From Vitis vinifera (Eukaryota; Streptophyta; Magnoliopsida; Vitales; Vitaceae), in assembly GCF_030704535.1 (NCBI RefSeq), contig NC_081815.1:759001-823000 (forward strand): a DNA stretch of 64,000 nucleotides. Reading direction: 5' to 3'. How positions within the stretch are numbered: position 1 is the first letter of the stretch; every line of letters starts with the position of its first letter. This document shows, in pieces, positions 6,849 to 14,805 of this stretch. The translations under genes and the position numbers were made by a program. The notes under the pieces are model-generated. The model was not told where the DNA came from and did no database searches. It worked only from the letters and a program-made list of their open reading frames with translations.

Positions 6849-14805
<7,957 letters not shown>

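Follow-up and report, generated by a model that had tools for sequence, protein, structure and literature searches.

Can an exon of only four nucleotides restore a reading frame that otherwise breaks within a conserved helicase motif? The question is raised by a 64,000-nucleotide stretch of Vitis vinifera DNA (assembly GCF_030704535.1, contig NC_081815.1, positions 759,001 to 823,000 of the forward strand; hereafter "the window", whose own numbering is used throughout), in which exons 10 and 12 of a RecQ helicase gene, likely RECQ3, are separated by a gap of exactly 800 nucleotides. The original prediction was that the tetranucleotide GATG lies in this gap as a microexon, and the analysis presented here leads, with near certainty, to the same reading: GATG would be a coding exon of plant RECQ3, which we infer to be used in the transcripts, and constitutively so, and would represent the local copy of a plant microexon published as Cluster 5. 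The elements concerned, delimited in a gene model built by hand, are the following:

6849–14805, plus strand: RECQ3 coding region from start codon to stop, with 19 exons, 729 amino acids and DEAD, Helicase_C and RecQ zinc-binding domains

10361–10457, plus strand: exon 10, ending TTC-GG before GTACGA

10458–11133, plus strand: intron 10, 676 nucleotides, GT-AG, upstream of the microexon

11134–11137, plus strand: microexon GATG, exon 11, entered in phase 2, completing GGG and giving the ATG of FGMGID

11138–11257, plus strand: intron 11, 120 nucleotides, GT-AG, downstream of the microexon

11258–11407, plus strand: exon 12, starting GGC ATA GAC (GGCATAGAC) after CTTTTAG

The two exon borders from which the prediction started are found at 10457 and 11258, exon 10 ending with TTC-GG before a GT and exon 12 beginning with GGC-ATA-GAC after an AG, and their direct joining does break the frame, as had been claimed, the junction reading VAFGA* and translation ending at codon 319. 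GATG is preceded by two bases of a codon (GG) and is therefore entered in phase 2; it is flanked by TTCCTTCAG on the 5′ side and by GTATGC on the 3′ side, and the junction spliced through it translates as VAFGMGID. With this exon in place the 19 exons sum to 2190 nucleotides, i.e., 729 codons plus stop in an uninterrupted frame, which reproduces exactly the count put forward originally, and all 18 introns of the model are of the GT-AG type.

The gap was searched for GT-AG single exons of 1–150 nucleotides leaving both introns at least 60 nucleotides long, the borders of exons 10 and 12 being kept fixed and the splice matrices being derived from no more than the remaining 16 introns of this gene. 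Sixteen in-frame, stop-free bridges were obtained and GATG has the highest joint splice score (10.7), followed by pieces of 34 nucleotides (10.0) and 22 nucleotides (8.9) and by TCTT (8.5). A methionine before GID is produced by only two of the 16 bridges, GATG and the 22-nucleotide piece. The premise that GATG is the sole fitting piece thus holds for an FGMGID motif free of insertions, which GATG alone provides, but not for the frame and the methionine taken together, both of which the 22-nucleotide bridge also preserves.

The weight of this motif was assessed on bacterial loci fetched with a query beginning just past it, so that the motif itself was not selected for. Among the matches listed, 15 of the 17 bacterial loci have GMG with I, V or M as the next residue and D or N after it, the exceptions being GLGID in locus L002 and ELGID in locus L017, the latter probably not a RecQ protein; RECQ5 reads GMGVD in the five alignments shown (5/5), all of them with chains of one protein, helicase Q5. 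The motif is highly conserved and not, as had been stated, invariant.

As to the identity of the gene, the 729-amino acid product matches PF00270 (DEAD/DEAH), PF00271 (helicase C-terminal) and PF16124 (RecQ zinc-binding) above cutoff, and it scores 484.7 bits with the TIGR00614 RecQ profile, whose cutoff is 219.8. Its best match among solved structures (PDB) is with chains of helicase Q5 (RECQ5), which we take to be the human protein. Human RECQ5 is grouped in the RecQ3 subfamily together with Arabidopsis RECQ3 (PMC6947026) and, because the best structural match belongs to this subfamily, RECQ3 is the likely name of the gene, the subfamily assignment resting on the RecQ profile, the helicase Q5 match and a pair of microexons.

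Published precedent points the same way. Yu et al. 2022 described 2,398 microexons of at most 15 nucleotides in 10 plants and defined 45 conserved clusters (PMC8831610), two of which are conserved plant microexons of RECQ3, namely Cluster 5 (4 nucleotides, phase 2) and Cluster 18 (8 nucleotides, phase 1). When Cluster 5 (e.g., AT4G35740.1) and GATG are compared by gene, length, phase and splice sites, no difference is found: the gene family is the same, both have 4 nucleotides, both are in phase 2 and both have canonical splice sites. The central proposal, a 4-nucleotide microexon that restores frame and FGMGID in RECQ3, is thus supported by the sequence, by the matches with the RecQ profile and the PDB and by a published counterpart. 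As far as a partial survey of the literature reaches, RECQ3 microexons are named only in PMC8831610, the portions covered of PMC4458573, PMC6009662 and PMC6600660 containing nothing that bears on the RECQ3 microexon. That four nucleotides should be near the lower limit for plants is overstated, since 1-nucleotide microexons have been described in APC11 and VPS55 (PMC8831610); these are, like GATG, very short plant coding exons, yet they are shorter still and belong to other genes. The 9-nucleotide microexons of AP2 and invertase genes (PMC8831610) complete conserved protein motifs, although they too differ from GATG in gene and in length.

An exon that fits the second published RECQ3 microexon is located about 3.7 kilobases upstream of GATG:

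7457–7464, plus strand: microexon CCTTGATG, exon 3, 8 nucleotides, entered in phase 1, encoding ALM of PLIALMENQ

This exon and Cluster 18 share gene, length and phase, a single codon base preceding the exon. Among the five in-frame bridges listed for this site CCTTGATG alone gives PLIALMENQ, and its skipping leads to a stop at codon 112. The model contains exactly one 4-nucleotide and one 8-nucleotide exon, the sole other exon of 51 nucleotides or less having 35.

How could so short an exon be spliced? GATG would be too short for splicing factors to bind at both its ends at once, so that introns 10 and 11 would probably be removed sequentially; the 120-nucleotide intron 11 would most likely be spliced first and the 676-nucleotide intron 10 later. 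Such a course has been proposed for plant microexons, which could not host splicing complexes on both sides and whose flanking introns would be removed one after the other, the upstream one tending to be late (PMC8831610). In the same study, 16 of 69 microexons had sole-downstream reads and none of the sole-upstream kind, four showed the reverse, and the remaining 49 had reads of both kinds, those of the downstream kind being more numerous in 32 of them. The short downstream and long upstream intron found here would fit a downstream-first order.

Several observations weigh against the reading of GATG as a microexon or against the strength of the case. The exon edges of the hand-built model were set with the help of what is known of the Arabidopsis RECQ3 protein, so that the model depends in part on prior knowledge. 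Among the 26 AGs of the gap that were scored, the acceptor of GATG comes only 7th, and leave-one-out scoring places it 13th of 18; the last 60 nucleotides of intron 10 contain no YTNAY branch-like site. An AG-NATG-GT string, which occurs once in the 800-nucleotide gap, is present in 3.8% of 20,000 first-order random gaps, so that GATG could be a chance match. Finally, a 22-nucleotide exon (11116–11137), made with an AG further upstream and the donor of GATG and giving FGYWCSFRMGID in frame, stays in frame up to the usual stop, here codon 736, and relies on a donor that comes first among the 35 GTs scored, i.e., those lying at least 60 nucleotides into the gap. This longer exon would, on the other hand, add six residues (YWCSFR) inside the conserved helicase motif, at a site where none of the 17 bacterial loci among the matches listed has an insertion, and its joint splice score is below that of GATG; we consider it very improbable. 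No more credible is a pseudogene or broken copy in which exon 10 is joined straight to exon 12 to yield a truncated product: the stop produced by this junction, as well as the chance occurrence just mentioned, would be in keeping with it, but the other 18 exons are open, the 729-amino acid product matches RecQ profiles and the exon that fits Cluster 18 is likewise intact. The figure of 3.8% is in itself weak evidence; the random gaps in which an AG-NATG-GT equals or exceeds GATG in both splice scores number 9 in 20,000 (0.00045), and the case for the microexon is made jointly by frame, motif, splice context and published precedent. Unusually strong splice sites form no part of it, the leave-one-out ranks giving them no support (6th of 18 for the donor, 13th for the acceptor); because of these middling ranks and of the lack of YTNAY in intron 10, the sites of GATG are to be regarded as ordinary. 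The 8-nucleotide exon ranks 5th for the donor and 17th for the acceptor out of 18 in the same scoring. Two branch-like sites, TTAAT and CTGAT, are present towards the 3′ end of intron 11, and the branch point of intron 10 is possibly weak or distant, which would fit a late removal of this intron.

A further reading accepts GATG as a real microexon and sees in it a regulatory switch as well: where splicing around it is late or fails, premature stops would arise and RECQ3 levels would fall in some conditions. The coding outcomes are compatible with it: in addition to the skipping of GATG, retention of intron 10, of intron 11 or of both gives a stop at codon 322, whereas skipping of exons 10 and 11 or of exons 11 and 12 gives stops at codons 312 and 321, respectively, so that all six outcomes tested truncate the protein between codons 312 and 322 and lose more than half of it, from the motif FGMGID on. 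Furthermore, at least one detained flanking intron has been reported for more than 72% (50/69) of constitutive Arabidopsis microexons vis-à-vis approximately 30% of introns genome-wide (PMC8831610). However, the same behaviour is expected of any frame-shifting exon, and the truncating outcomes need no special explanation, being accounted for by the phase of the exon and by stop-rich introns; a regulatory switch appears unlikely. Equally doubtful is the broader conjecture that both RECQ3 microexons might constitute a regulated checkpoint, at which slow removal of the flanking introns would cause nuclear retention or decay, the dose of RECQ3 tracking the splicing capacity of the cell, e.g., upon DNA damage or stress. 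An ordinary, constitutive microexon remains the preferred reading of GATG.

The age of this exon can be considered in the light of the distribution of the published clusters. Moss has 35 of them in common, and Selaginella shares another five that moss does not; Clusters 4, 12, 39 and 43 are listed as confined to flowering plants, and Cluster 10 as one shared with Chlorella (PMC8831610). Because the moss Physcomitrella is reported to be without RecQ3 (PMC6947026), the five clusters shared with Selaginella most likely include Cluster 5, a placement that is ours and not that of PMC8831610.

Elsewhere in the window, a divergent neighbour gene with at least two exons lies at approximately 4900–5755 on the minus strand and presumably encodes the ribosomal protein eS29; a TA-rich repeat is present near 5555–5610, between the exons of this neighbour or between genes. 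The Pfam scan covered 10 of the 43 open frames listed for the window. At 23064–24329 (minus strand) it revealed an RVT_2 reverse transcriptase (PF07727), a kind that we assume to be that of Copia-type elements, and more open frames are found nearby, those at 21923–22432 and 24676–25116 being without Pfam match. The open frames at 43163–45172 and 46467–46991 (both plus strand) match a sodium/calcium exchanger (PF01699) and a Ctr copper transporter (PF04145), respectively, and a 306-codon open frame at 55812–56729 (plus strand) has no Pfam match at E 0.001. A subtilase-like protein is encoded at 57945–60577 (minus strand) by two adjacent open frames that cover profile positions 2–238 and then 237–274; because the profile is split in this way, the region near 58625–58700 may contain an intron or a break in the frame. 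Scans of the window for Rfam families (at gathering thresholds) and for tRNAs gave 0 matches each.

What, then, does the four-base exon mean for the gene and for its annotation? The microexon is very probably real, and it is an ordinary feature already described in print. The expectation that automated annotation would miss it is justified insofar as standard annotation frequently overlooks plant microexons (PMC8831610), but not entirely, since a dedicated predictor and a database cover the 45 clusters (PMC8831610, PMC12409088); the latter, MEPDB, contains 20,224 microexons from 132 plant genomes in which these clusters were sought (PMC12409088). The value of recognizing GATG is thus mainly one of annotation, in that a model lacking it would present this DNA helicase as truncated or broken at the motif FGMGID; as to the reading of raw sequence, the constraint imposed by the protein was very probably sufficient, by itself, to locate an exon of four bases correctly.
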